DNA of 29,531 nucleotides from a virus: IMG/VR virus record IMGVR_UViG_3300037459_000020, positions 1 to 29,531 of that record, one strand, 5' to 3'. The position numbers were made by a program, and so were the translations under genes. A model generated the notes under the pieces. It made no database searches. It was not told where the DNA came from and worked only from the letters and a program-made list of their open reading frames with translations. Shown here piece after piece: positions 12,020-29,531 of this stretch. Each line of letters opens with the position of its first letter. Position 1 is the stretch's first letter.

Positions 12020-12262
12020 CTACCCTTCAAAATTCGTTGTGGCGAAGAGGCGTTGTGCCCATGCTCGCCAGTTGTCGTATGTGTACGGATCCGGTGCGTC
12101 CTGCCCAACCGGGTCCACGTCTCCGAACACTGTCGCCGCCCACTGCTGCCACTCGTCTTCGTTGTCGAGTCGGGGGAAGTTCTCCGACCGACGCTCGAAC
12201 AGTGGGACCATGAAGTCTGCCCACTCGATCACGTTGTCGAAGCCTCGCGGATCGATGATCAT
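12020..12262 (-). CDS. Hypothetical small protein following the nozzle gene
   Basis: The 80-residue acidic protein is rich in Trp, Asp and Phe (DEWQQWAATVFGDVDP, YDNWRAWAQRLF) and ends NFEG. It has no transmembrane segment or Cys motif. The ATG overlaps the nozzle-like gene stop as ATGA, and only 4 nt separate its stop from the next start, so it is clearly embedded in the operon. It may be a small tail or assembly factor. I do not recognise the family. Confidence 0.7.
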   Translation of the reverse strand: MIIDPRGFDNVIEWADFMVPLFERRSENFPRLDNEDEWQQWAATVFGDVDPVGQDAPDPYTYDNWRAWAQRLFATTNFEG

Positions 12263-21541: not shown

Positions 21542-22624
21542 CTATCTCGTGTACGGTGATATGTTAGGACGCAAGAAGGTGTCAGAGCCGTCGCCCTCAC
21601 CCGTCCATGCATCGTCCAGTGCTTCTTTCGCATCGATGTCGATCTGCGGGATCAACTCGATCTTCACTTCTTTGATCTTCCGTGACAGCTGCTTCGACAG
21701 ATTGGATTCAATCGCCATGTACCAGCGATCAGGCACCTCCAGCTCGTCCGTCATCAGACCGACGTCTTGAATCTGACTCTGCACGTACCCGGTGATCTGG
21801 GCGAACGTGAACTGCTCTTCAGGGCTGGGCCAGATCTGCAGCTCAGGGATTGTGCGTTGCCGGTCGTACCACAACTGTGTCGGTCGCCCCGGTGATGTCT
21901 TGTCGGGCAGGTTCGAGTAATCGGTTCGGTTCAGCGTGTGGTAAAACGGGATCTCTTGCGGTGCGTTCTGGATCGCAAACTCGATCACATTGAGGATCGT
22001 GATCCCGTCGTTCGCACGCAGCCGGTAGAACTCGAAGGCGTTCGCGTTCTGGATGTCGTACCAGACCCACTCACCTGCGACAACCACCTGACCCGACGTG
22101 CGATCAATCAGCGTGGTGTAGCTGATGCCGTCATTCGATGCCTCAATCACGAAGCCCCACGGAGAGGCAGACAGCAGCGTATTGACGAGGATGCCGAACG
22201 TTGAGACTGCAGTAGCCGTGTCGAGCTGGAGCTGAATGTTGCCATCCACCAGGGTCTGGGTGCATGCAGTACTCAGATCTTTGTCAAAGGCGTTTTCAGC
22301 TACACCCTCTGACGCTGTCGCAGTACCCCCATCGTTGGTGAACTCATTCTGAGTACGCAGGTTGATGTCGAGGATGTCCTCCGTGCCAAGAGGCAGCGGC
22401 ACAGTGAACTCGCCCGCGTAGATCGGCAGGATGATGCGCTGCACGTTCCACAACTTGATGCCTTTGTTGACGAGGCTCATGCAGAACAGCCACAAACACT
22501 CCAGAGCGATCTGCAAGTGCTCGCCTGTGATCTCCTGCTCGACCATCTTGCAGCGCCTGAAGGCGTGATCGATGATCTGCTGGTTCAGGAAGATCGTCTG
22601 ACCAACTGTTCCACTGGTTGCCAT
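21542..22624 (-). CDS. Connector/tail-accessory protein with inserted discoidin-like domain
   Basis: The 360-residue protein has two halves of one domain. The first is residues 1-95 (helices, then a beta sheet entry: IILPIYAGEFTVPLPLGTEDIL) and the second is residues about 223-360 (RPTQLWYDRQRTIPELQIWP, then a helix LEVPDRWYMAIESNLSKQLSRKI). Together they resemble P22 gp4/adaptor-type head-tail connectors. Between them, residues about 96-222 look like an F5/8-type C (discoidin) domain, with AFDKDLSTAC, WGFVIEASNDGISYTTL and FEFYRLRAN. Discoidin domains bind glycans. GAGGAG sits upstream of ATG 22624, and the frame-shifted extension of the previous gene ends in a TAATG at this start. The connector call is moderately sure. 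Confidence 0.7.
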   Translation of the reverse strand: MATSGTVGQTIFLNQQIIDHAFRRCKMVEQEITGEHLQIALECLWLFCMSLVNKGIKLWNVQRIILPIYAGEFTVPLPLGTEDILDINLRTQNEFTNDGGTATASEGVAENAFDKDLSTACTQTLVDGNIQLQLDTATAVSTFGILVNTLLSASPWGFVIEASNDGISYTTLIDRTSGQVVVAGEWVWYDIQNANAFEFYRLRANDGITILNVIEFAIQNAPQEIPFYHTLNRTDYSNLPDKTSPGRPTQLWYDRQRTIPELQIWPSPEEQFTFAQITGYVQSQIQDVGLMTDELEVPDRWYMAIESNLSKQLSRKIKEVKIELIPQIDIDAKEALDDAWTGEGDGSDTFLRPNISPYTR

Positions 22625-22763
22625 TAGTATCCGGCTCCTCGAACTCTACTTCGTCCACCACGCGGACGCGTACCGTGACCCTTCGGTCTCGGTGATCGCA
22701 CGTGTCGATCCATCACGTCGTTAGCGACCCGGCGAGCTGTACGCTCTACCTTGCCGCCCCGCG
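22624..22763 (-). CDS. -1 frame extension of the 323-aa GG-motif protein
   Basis: This 121-bp stretch between two genes is otherwise the longest gap in the operon, but the -1 frame relative to the upstream gene is open across it. Reading from the slip site gives 46 residues after Lys318 (starting ARGGKVE, ending RGAGY), 14 of them Lys or Arg, and a TAA that overlaps the next ATG as TAATG. The extension repeats the RGGKV motif found in the zero-frame protein. No good start codon or ribosome site lies in this frame: an internal ATG at 22711-22713 has no Shine-Dalgarno. A frameshift fusion of 364 residues is therefore the simplest reading. Confidence 0.7.
22731..22755 (-). other. Possible frameshift-stimulating stem
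   Basis: By hand fold on the transcript, GGC (22755-22753) pairs with GCC (22733-22731), and after a 6-nt bulge GAGC (22746-22743) pairs with GCTC (22737-22734) around loop GTACA. The stem begins 8 nt after the slippery heptamer, within the usual distance. The stem is short, so it may be marginal. Confidence 0.35.
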
Positions 22764-23726: not shown

Positions 23727-23981
23727 CTAACTTTGTAGCCTGATCTGATAGTTTTTCGCCGCGATCAAATCGCGAACAGGGTCGTCGCCTTCAATCTCTC
23801 GCGACACTGAGTATCCAAATTCCTGTATCAATTCCTGCAGCTGCTCAAGAATCACTCGCGGTATTTCGATGTTGAAAGTATCCGTCCCGTCAGTGAACCG
23901 AACACGGAACGACATGCCCCGATCACTCAGCTCATTGACCTCAACGGAGAGTCGTTCAACGGTGACGTTACGCAGTGCCAT
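23727..23981 (-). CDS. Hypothetical small protein
   Basis: The 84-residue acidic protein shows a beta-strand N terminus (NVTVERLSVEVNELSDRG) and strands FRVRFTDGTDTFNIEIP, then a helix (VILEQLQELIQEFGYSV) and an acidic-basic end (GDDPVRDLIAAKNYQIRL). This could be a small beta/alpha domain. The start overlaps the fibre-like gene as TAATG. No family recognised. Confidence 0.7.
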   Translation of the reverse strand: MALRNVTVERLSVEVNELSDRGMSFRVRFTDGTDTFNIEIPRVILEQLQELIQEFGYSVSREIEGDDPVRDLIAAKNYQIRLQS

Positions 23982-25162
23982 TAGCGGGTTATCTCCTGAT
24001 AGAGGTAGTACGCATCAACATACGATGCTCTGTTCGCGAGACCTATGAGCTTCATGATGTGCTCCGATATGAAGTGTCCGAAGCCTGTACCTGATGGAAT
24101 GTTAGTCACGATGGTTGCGACCGACACATCGTCAATGAAGAACTCCACCGACGTACCCGCAGCGTTCACCTCAAACTCCAATTTGAAGTACGTCGATGTC
24201 CCAACAGCTACACCAGTATCCACCGAAGTTTCACCGATGCCATCTTCACAGATCGCTTGCCAGCGGTTACCGTTTTGGTTGTCCTGAGCCTCAAACCCAA
24301 TCCCCTGAAGAATGGTATTCGGCAGAGCCATGCTGAAGAAGCCTGAGCGAATCACGTAGCGATTGGCTGCAATGGAAGCAACGGCAGGAGATTGATACCA
24401 GCAACCGTGCCGCGTAATGCCGCCGACACCGACATGGAAACCTTGCGCGAATTGCGAGAGTAGAAACACACGACCCGCTGACGTCGTACCTGTATTCAGC
24501 CCCCAGACACCAGGGTGATCAGTGAAGTCGTAGGTAGCTGTGGGCGTGGAAACACTGGCACCGGCACCAGCAGAAATTGCTTGTAGCCCGTCAACCTGCA
24601 AGCCTCCGGGTGGTTCGAAAAAGTCGGAGAACACGAACGCTCGTATGCCCATCGACTCGAAGAAGTTGCGTTGTGGACTACCTGCTGAGCCACCACCACT
24701 GATGACAACGGCAATTCTCAGGTTCTGAGTAAACGCAGATCCCTGCGCTTCGACCTCAGCAATGGTGATCTCTCGGTACGTTCCTTCATCCGTGATCGTA
24801 TCGATCTCAACGATGACGAAGTTGTCGGCGTCACTTTGGTCTTGCAGGAAGATGATCGAGCCAGCGCTGAGCAGATCAAGAAACACAGAGACGTCCGTGC
24901 CCCCGTCATTGGTCTCGTTGATCCACATGATCGTGGCTGATTCGATAGTCGCGTTGTTGAACCGGACCTGACCACTCGCAGGGGGTGCAACGATCTCGGT
25001 GCGATAGCGCCAAACACCTAAGCCAACGAAACCACCAGCAGTGTCTTGCCAGTCGAAGTCGTAGTTGTCACCTGAAAGCTTGGTGAGCACTTGACCGAGT
25101 GCACCACCCGCAGGGATGGGGATCGCTACGATCCCAGCAGTGCCTAGCCCTGATCCCGGCAT
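23981..25162 (-). CDS. Fibre-like virion protein with ConA-like C-terminal domain
   Basis: The 393-residue protein starts with a Gly/Pro/Ala-rich segment and AGGALGQVLTKLSGDNYDFDWQD, a signature I associate with the N-terminal repeats of phage tail fibres. A beta-rich linker and the PQRNFFESMGIRAFVFSDFF region follow. The C-terminal 220 residues (VDGLQAISA..., TYFKLEFEVNAAGTSVEFFIDDVSVATIV) follow a jelly-roll or ConA/LamG-like strand pattern. It would be a minor fibre or decoration protein. There is no enzyme motif. Confidence 0.65.
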   Translation of the reverse strand: MPGSGLGTAGIVAIPIPAGGALGQVLTKLSGDNYDFDWQDTAGGFVGLGVWRYRTEIVAPPASGQVRFNNATIESATIMWINETNDGGTDVSVFLDLLSAGSIIFLQDQSDADNFVIVEIDTITDEGTYREITIAEVEAQGSAFTQNLRIAVVISGGGSAGSPQRNFFESMGIRAFVFSDFFEPPGGLQVDGLQAISAGAGASVSTPTATYDFTDHPGVWGLNTGTTSAGRVFLLSQFAQGFHVGVGGITRHGCWYQSPAVASIAANRYVIRSGFFSMALPNTILQGIGFEAQDNQNGNRWQAICEDGIGETSVDTGVAVGTSTYFKLEFEVNAAGTSVEFFIDDVSVATIVTNIPSGTGFGHFISEHIMKLIGLANRASYVDAYYLYQEITR

Positions 25163-28354: not shown

Positions 28355-29056
28355 CTAGCTCCTTTCTTTGGTGGCAAAGATCCAGTCGAAGTCTCCTACC
28401 AACGCAGCGACTGCACCTGCCTGCACACCGAAAGCGGGTTGCAGTTCACCGACAGGAAGCGCCAGACCATTCAGGTCGAGGAAGCCCAGAGGCGTTCCGT
28501 TCACACCGTAGTAGACACGGTCGATGCCATCCCAGAACCACTCAGTTGTGAAGAAGTTCGTCGTGATCGTCGCGATTGCCACGTCTGTCGCAATGTCAGC
28601 ACTGCCCGAACGCACAATGATGTCCAACGTCGCAGCGTCGTCATCTTTGCGGAAGAAGACACCGTTGTTCGGCGTCAGACCTCCACCGTCAGCCAGTCCA
28701 ATCACGAGGTCGGAATCAGTCTCGTCGTCTACCGATTGCCGCGAGCGGAAGTACTGCTTGCGATTCGCCGCAGCCTCCATCAGGAAGCTCTGACCGTTCT
28801 TGACGGCAAACTCAGAATCGTTGTCGGCACCAGCTGTGGTCAGCCGAAGCACACCACCGTCTACGTCTGCCAATGCCTGTGTCCCCGCACCCACACCAGA
28901 GAAGGTGAAGTCAGCTGCGGTGAAGTAGTCGAAGTCTTCCATGTAGTTATGGAACTTCGTCGGGTCGAGTTGACCCATCGAACCGAAGAGATCGGCAGCG
29001 TTCCGGTTGGTGATGCCGTTCTCAAAGTTGGTGTTCTGAATATTAATCAGACCCAT
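28355..29056 (-). CDS. Probable capsid decoration protein, ConA-like fold
   Basis: The 233-residue protein follows the capsid gene after an 88-bp gap and is beta-rich. Its pattern (FDYFTAADFTFSG, RLTTAGADNDSEFAVK, RKQYFRSRQSVDDETDSDL, WDGIDRVYYGVNGTP) resembles jelly-roll/LamG-like structural proteins found next to capsid genes in environmental podoviruses. Decoration of the head surface is likely, by position and fold. AGGAG precedes the ATG at about 10 nt. Twin hairpins occupy the upstream gap. Confidence 0.65.
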   Translation of the reverse strand: MGLINIQNTNFENGITNRNAADLFGSMGQLDPTKFHNYMEDFDYFTAADFTFSGVGAGTQALADVDGGVLRLTTAGADNDSEFAVKNGQSFLMEAAANRKQYFRSRQSVDDETDSDLVIGLADGGGLTPNNGVFFRKDDDAATLDIIVRSGSADIATDVAIATITTNFFTTEWFWDGIDRVYYGVNGTPLGFLDLNGLALPVGELQPAFGVQAGAVAALVGDFDWIFATKERS

Positions 29057-29073
29057 GTCGAATCTCCTATTGG

Positions 29074-29096
29074 GTTCTCCGTTTCACGTCCGGAGA
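29074..29096 (-). ncRNA. Hairpin A of a twin element
   Basis: On the transcript a 7-bp perfect stem (29096-29090 with 29080-29074; TTCTCCG with CGGAGAA) closes a 9-nt loop GACGTGAAA. It lies 18 nt upstream of the ATG at 29056 and 5 nt 3' of hairpin B. The loop is identical to that of hairpin B although the stem sequence is unrelated. No U-run follows, so a terminator is unlikely. Confidence 0.7.
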
Positions 29097-29101
29097 AATT
29101 C

Positions 29102-29126
29102 GGGGGGCGTTTCACGTCCGCCCCCC
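29102..29126 (-). ncRNA. Hairpin B of a twin element
   Basis: On the transcript an 8-bp perfect stem (29126-29119 with 29109-29102; GGGGGGCG with CGCCCCCC) closes the same 9-nt loop GACGTGAAA as hairpin A. It lies 18 nt after the capsid gene stop (29145-29147). With the flanking pair, 13 bases (CGTTTCACGTCCG on the plus strand) are repeated exactly at 29079-29091 and 29108-29120. It could also stabilise the 3' end of capsid mRNA. Confidence 0.7.
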
Positions 29127-29144
29127 ACCATTTCCGTCAGGGCT

Positions 29145-29531
29145 TTACAGTCCCGGCGTACCGTAGATGATGCGAGGATCCGTCCAATCCGGAATATAAC
29201 GTTCCGTGGACTTGTACCGCATCGAGTCGGTTTCGAAATCGCCTTCCATCGACTTCTCCAGTCCTCGACGCATCATCATCTGGAGCCCACGAGGAGCATC
29301 CGTCTGCACCCACCACGCTGTGGTAGATGTGATACGGGACAGGTTTGCTTGACCTTGATCGAGCAGACCCATCGAGAGGATCGGGTTGATGTCGTTGTTG
29401 GCAGTGCCAGCTCGCAGCACCGACTTCAGCAACACTTCAGCCTGGAAGACCTGACTCGGACCCGTGACGATCTTGAGAGGCGTCAGCCGGATACGCTTGC
29501 CGTTGTTGTCAACAGCGTTACGGATCTGGAT
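29145..29531 (-). CDS. Major capsid protein, C-terminal part
   Basis: The frame is open from the window edge to TAA at 29145, giving 128 residues of the C-terminal end. It carries a stretch that fits a phage major head protein: NNGKRIRLTPLKIVTGPSQVF, LRAGTANNDINPILSMG, TSTTAWWVQTDAPRGLQMMMRR, and a final KSTERYIPDWTDPRIIYGTPG. The ERY...DWTDPR.IYG ending is typical of Mu gpT-like and related podovirus capsid proteins, by recollection. The N terminus is outside the window. An internal GTG at 29435 is not a true start because the frame continues upstream. Confidence 0.82.
   Translation of the reverse strand: MQIRNAVDNNGKRIRLTPLKIVTGPSQVFQAEVLLKSVLRAGTANNDINPILSMGLLDQGQANLSRITSTTAWWVQTDAPRGLQMMMRRGLEKSMEGDFETDSMRYKSTERYIPDWTDPRIIYGTPGL

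Follow-up and report, generated by a model that had tools for sequence, protein, structure and literature searches.

The window, by which we mean the whole 29,531-nt stretch that was analysed, is an IMG/VR phage fragment with its late genes on the minus strand. The product of the major capsid gene matched PHROG 4523 (head/protease; E 5e-4) and displayed 82% identity to a protein from Caulobacter phage GB2A (hypothetical there) and 69% identity to an annotated major capsid protein. The next gene codes for a 233-aa protein with a predicted concanavalin/legume-lectin-like beta sandwich. Pfam and PHROG searches with this protein returned no match; its AlphaFold model (pLDDT 70, pTM 0.75) had 2a5z (SO2946; E 9e-8) as the best solved match in Foldseek, with legume lectins also matched. 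A head-decoration or fibre role is plausible. A 393-aa protein encoded at 23981-25162 (minus strand) matched Pfam SO2946-like_C and, together with the predicted 2a5z fold of the 233-aa protein, makes two lectin-like proteins in one late region. The minus-strand gap of 88 nt between the end of the capsid gene (29145) and the start of the next gene (29056) contained two perfect hairpins, H1 and H2, arranged as follows:

29145..29531, minus strand: major capsid gene, C-terminal 128 codons (5' end beyond the window)
29127..29129, minus strand: GGU immediately 5' of H1, invariant
29102..29126, minus strand: H1 (hairpin 1), 8-bp stem GGGGGGCG/CGCCCCCC and 9-nt loop; arm, loop and arm GGGGGGCG / GACGTGAAA / CGCCCCCC, loop at 29110-29118
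29098..29101, minus strand: linker GAAU (GAAT in DNA) between H1 and H2
29075..29097, minus strand: H2 (hairpin 2), 7-bp stem UUCUCCG/CGGAGAA and 9-nt loop; arm, loop and arm in DNA TTCTCCG / GACGTGAAA / CGGAGAA, loop at 29082-29090
29073..29075, minus strand: ACC at the 3' end of H2, invariant
29064..29068, minus strand: AGGAG, a separate ribosome-binding site for the downstream gene, not within H2 (ATG at 29056-29054)
28355..29056, minus strand: downstream gene, 233 aa

The initial annotation had reported 7-bp and 8-bp perfect stems closing the same loop, and this was confirmed on the minus strand, with the RNA loop GACGUGAAA identical in H1 and H2 and GGAG carried by the 3' arm of H2. Its description of the stems as unrelated was somewhat strong, since both carry a CG/CG step next to the loop. 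The string CGGACGTGAAACG (loop plus closing base) occurred twice in the window, both copies at the capsid/next-gene gap, and no other two hairpins lying within 100 nt of each other in the window shared an identical loop of at least 6 nt, even with 5-bp stems allowed. An identical-loop pair was found in none of 60 Markov-simulated windows, even with 5-bp stems, and a chance origin was rejected on this count. The minimum-energy fold of the minus strand consisted of exactly H1 and H2 (-39.3 kcal/mol, z -2.84; two of 200 shuffles folded as well). Elsewhere in the late region, two stretches that were folded for comparison, 22620-22750 (z -1.0) and 12112-12258 (z +0.64), did no better than shuffles, which for these two is in line with the earlier view that this is the only structured gap of the late operon. 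The GGU 5' of H1 and the ACC 3' of H2 could pair to form a putative three-way junction; both were kept in 20 of 20 loci, an invariance that leaves nothing for covariation to score.

Relatives were collected from 80 loci found by a search with the capsid C-terminus and three found with the downstream gene, followed by a later set obtained with DNA patterns (paired loops; H1; flanks and linker without loops) and a profile of the downstream protein. A search with the flanks, partial stems and linker, leaving the loops free, brought back the same loop classes and one chance match. A covariance model built from 17 distinct members gave one strong match (53-87 bits) in each of 24 phage records, which include those 17 and some near-copies of each other. 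The match was always at the capsid/next-gene junction and the next best matches were below 14 bits, so that a further copy elsewhere in the same phages was ruled out.

Folding and covariation analysis over related phages, which the initial annotation had proposed, placed the hairpins in the minimum-energy fold and revealed covarying stems. Across both stems 98.8% of cells were paired (cells in three rows of the L006 clade, where the MAFFT alignment shifts H2 by one base, being scored against the structure), and nine of 15 pairs displayed double-sided changes. The covariation score was 0.403 compared to 0.144 in shuffled alignments, with 0 of 500 shuffles as good, and the signal was lost when the pairing partner was slid by one column. 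The eight pairs of H1 were 100% paired in the 17 sequences, six of them with double changes, and the pairs of H2 were less variable (three with double changes). Sizes were fixed across the aligned members, with 8 bp in H1, 7 bp in H2 and loops of 8-9 nt. The linker measured 4 nt in most relatives. It was longer, at about 7 nt, in the clade of L006, L007 and L128, whose H1 can also fold with 11 bp. The capsid stop codon lay 13-23 nt upstream of the element.

The loop core was ACGUGAA in most members, and the two bases framing it never formed a standard pair (G.A, A.C, U.U). This core was kept in both loops of most members while the downstream proteins of the same phages fell to as low as 28% identity. 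The loops of H1 and H2 at each locus were:

GACGUGAAA/GACGUGAAA: window, L083, L085, L086, L091
GACGUGAAA/GACGCGAAA: L094, L095, L097
AACGUGAAC/GACGUGAAA: L110, L111
AACGUGAAC/UACGUGAAU: L102
UAUCGAAU/UACGUGAAU: L103, L109, L112, L150
UAUCGAAU/UACGCGAAU: L106
GACGUAAA/GACGUGAAA: L114
GACGUUAAA/GAUGUAAA: L128
GACGUGAAA/GAUGUAAA: L007
GACAUGAAA/GAUGUGAA: L006

Outside the clade with the twin element, L013 also carried two hairpins, with loops GAAGUAAA and CAUGUAAC. Because the stems covary, the comparison of relatives shows an element that acts as an RNA structure: a two-hairpin unit of fixed size with matched loops, present only at this junction. The loops are conserved while the stems change, which indicates that the loops matter. 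The earlier proposal that the loop and the hairpin shape, rather than the stem bases, are selected is supported by the covariation, the kept loop core and the fixed helix lengths. Conservation of the exact loop was, however, lineage-specific, as L003-L005 differ and UAUCGAAU, AACGUGAAC or UACGUGAAU occurs in some of the phages with the twin hairpins.

In a tree built from capsid C-terminal DNA, most of one clade carried the twin element, with the label gained or lost at least three times. L003-L005 are close relatives with 95-97% identity in the capsid C-terminus, yet these phages carry another hairpin with other loops instead of the twin element, and the exact loop is therefore dispensable or exchangeable. 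In L003-L005, L008, L020 and L023 the replacement hairpins had the loops GGAAAAUU, GGAGAAUU and AGAAAAUC, and a second, weaker hairpin covered the ribosome-binding site. Across the post-capsid gaps of L003, L004, L005, L008, L020, L023, L156 and L172 the hairpin loop took the form RGARAAUY, again with a weak hairpin over the ribosome-binding site, whose loop had the form GYUUAAU in several; the two loops share G..AAU and are perhaps a second matched-loop class. Distant relatives (L025, L026, L028) displayed a UUCG hairpin and a small weak hairpin over the ribosome-binding site, and the model matched the same gap at 22-23 bits. Since these relatives keep the layout of a strong hairpin plus a ribosome-binding-site hairpin with UUCG loops, the layout seems to predate the ACGUGAA loop.

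L094 and L097 combined the window-type element and capsid with the type of downstream gene found in L006 (compared with L006, L007 and L128). This exchange indicates that the element and the downstream gene are not strictly tied and that the junction is a mosaic boundary. Cultured capsid relatives were Caulobacter phages and others; gaps were read in the cultured Caulobacter phage GB2A (L098) and in one uncultured record (L099), and both were non-members with ordinary terminator-like hairpins. The hairpin in GB2A is followed by a gene annotated as a homing endonuclease. A search with the exact double-loop pattern returned this junction and, beyond this group of phages, L089 alone, which was rejected as a repeat inside an apparent coding sequence. 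Six matches to the H1 pattern in bacterial genomes had no recognisable second loop-bearing hairpin and were read as chance.

In 12 of the 20 loci (L083, L085, L094, L095, L097, L102, L103, L106, L109, L112, L114, L150) the next gene had its sole ribosome-binding site within the arm of H2. A separate site was found in the remaining eight (window, L086, L091, L110, L111, L128, L007, L006). H2 as a plain lid on the ribosome-binding site was rejected because these eight have their site downstream of it, and H2 is at most a part-time lid. A translation switch and an mRNA end-stabiliser, both listed in the initial annotation, stay candidate roles, burial of the site in H2 not being a conserved feature. 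Among capsid relatives at large, the ribosome-binding site was buried (pairing >0.8) in 46% of 86 next-gene gaps compared to 13% of 413 other genes from the same loci, a comparison in which the rows are related and the p-value is unreliable.

No Rfam family (release 15) matched at gathering score, and none matched 28900-29531 at E values up to 5. Literature searches on paired-loop RNA motifs and capsid-gene hairpins turned up ANTAR work and phage operators, with nothing on this junction. The closest known counterparts are RNAs in which paired hairpins carry conserved loops, namely ANTAR targets and TwoAYGGAY. ANTAR targets (EutV, NasR, AmiR) are dual-hairpin antiterminators with matched loops bound by a protein dimer, the pairs of the lower stem mattering only as structure; their linker is 5-12 nt and a linker of 3 nt impairs function (PMC3369931). 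The twin element likewise has adjacent small hairpins, matched conserved loops and a constrained linker (here mostly 8 bp, 4 nt, 7 bp). In contrast, an ANTAR target has six-nucleotide loops with A1 and G4, whereas those of the twin element are 8-9 nt with an ACGUGAA core, and the second ANTAR hairpin overlaps an intrinsic terminator (antitermination), whereas the twin element has no terminator-like site at 28800-29400. A search for PF03861 (ANTAR) in eight phage records found no match, a weak result as control genomes gave none either. TwoAYGGAY RNA consists of two hairpins with conserved AYGGAY loops and has no known function; the likeness lies in two hairpins with a conserved loop motif and the difference in the loop sequence. 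It is a candidate RNA that came out of comparative genomics (PMC2864571).

Two further kinds of RNA were compared. CsrA/RsmA sites are paired hairpins with a purine-rich loop over the ribosome-binding site, bound by a dimer, and CGGACGUG of the window resembles their GGA-loop consensus. CsrA, a candidate in the initial annotation, was nevertheless rejected because the loop GGA is not conserved and is absent in many members, the position reading AGA in L085 and L091 H1 and UAC or AAC in L102 and L103. In the translational operators of phages (gp43 and gp32 of T4/RB69, the coat protein of MS2) an RNA structure at the ribosome-binding site is recognised by a phage protein. Here, in contrast, two hairpins with matched loops lie behind the capsid gene. 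The operators of T4 are reviewed in PMC3014915. The absence of a U-tract after the hairpins had been noted correctly; an intrinsic terminator was rejected as no U-tract or terminator-like site was found at 28800-29400, and inspection by eye of the other members found no terminator-tail-like U-run directly after H1 or H2.

We propose, at about even odds (probability roughly 0.5), that the element works in cis on the late mRNA, capping the capsid message and dampening initiation on the next gene, its matched loops serving as protein docking sites. H1, which is very stable and lies beyond the region that a ribosome covers while terminating at the capsid stop codon, would cap and protect the abundant capsid message. 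H2 would form an anti-Shine-Dalgarno:Shine-Dalgarno stem in most members and so reduce initiation on the lectin-fold gene. The matched loops may dock a dimeric or two-domain RNA-binding protein from phage or host, which would stabilise or open the hairpin pair and in this way set the ratio of capsid to downstream protein. By analogy with ANTAR targets, a protein with two RNA sites would be the most economical reader of the loops. More tentatively, and somewhat short of even odds, the element may represent a previously undescribed phage RNA regulator of fixed-size hairpins and ACGUGAA loops through which a dedicated phage or host protein sets capsid:accessory stoichiometry, with the sister loop classes (GAAGUAAA/CAUGUAAC; possibly GARAAU/GYUUAAU) reflecting coevolution of loop and binder.

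From a single message, tailed phages have to produce capsid protein in hundreds of copies and the product of the next gene in small or large number, and how this ratio is set is rarely known outside model phages. The element is a compact, strongly conserved and undescribed RNA signal at the capsid junction of uncultured phages. Its natural variants separate the contributions of stem, loop and ribosome-binding site, and its function is thus testable in a reporter without the phage.

A protein-free alternative is that the loops kiss through their self-complementary ACGU, holding the two hairpins next to each other in a compact, nuclease-resistant or ribosome-blocking fold, perhaps closed by a short GGU/ACC helix. 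ACGU is palindromic, and the fixed 8- and 7-bp stems would put the loops at a similar height. L007 (ACGU/AUGU, G-U) and L006 (ACAU/AUGU, A-U) resemble a stepwise compensated change between loops, with G-U and then A-U taking the place of G-C, and in both GGU..ACC is lengthened to CAUGGU..ACCAUG. This is, however, a single informative compensatory case and not statistics. The 4-bp pairing is impossible in the UAUCGAAU/UACGUGAAU lineage (L103, L106, L109, L112, L150) and in L013 (GAAGUAAA/CAUGUAAC), and L094/L097 (ACGU/ACGC) are down to three pairs. As a general mechanism ACGU kissing was rejected because it breaks in two lineages, and we consider loop pairing of this kind unlikely.

We likewise regard as improbable that the hairpins are generic, with stability alone counting (as a 3' exonuclease block or translation insulation) and the loop retained by descent under little selection. 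Most capsid relatives do have some strong hairpin at this gap, in many cases one with a UUCG or GAAA tetraloop or an ordinary terminator, and the ACGUGAA loop is missing from L003-L005. Without selection, however, a 9-nt loop would be expected to drift no more slowly than the stems, and 9 nt is not the most stable choice; instead, nine of 15 stem pairs change and the 7-nt core of the loop is retained, in most members in both hairpins. A duplex-DNA element, either two direct ACGTGAA boxes recognised by a regulator or a recombination joint at the mosaic boundary, would account for the constant loop-to-loop spacing (28 bp in most members) and the exchanged downstream gene types, but is rejected as very improbable by the stem covariation, since compensatory changes join arms that are adjacent only in a folded single strand and a recombination joint would keep the arms conserved too.

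A second, different structured RNA was observed in the capsid/next-gene gap of more distant relatives (for example L066:3384-3500). It consists of a 9-bp stem around GACGWCAUGCAGAC, in which WCAUGC pairs with GCAUGW beside the ribosome-binding site (a pseudoknot). The same gap carried it in L010, L016, L042-L045, L052, L058, L059, L061, L064, L074, L075 and L077, and in L163, L171, L174, L179, L186, L189, L190, L194, L198, L199, L217 and L231. No Rfam family matched this RNA at gathering score. Its 27 distinct copies included 18 used for covariation, in which 95.7% of cells were paired and 10 of 18 pairs were double-changed (0 of 500 shuffles as good), and it looks riboswitch- or operator-like.
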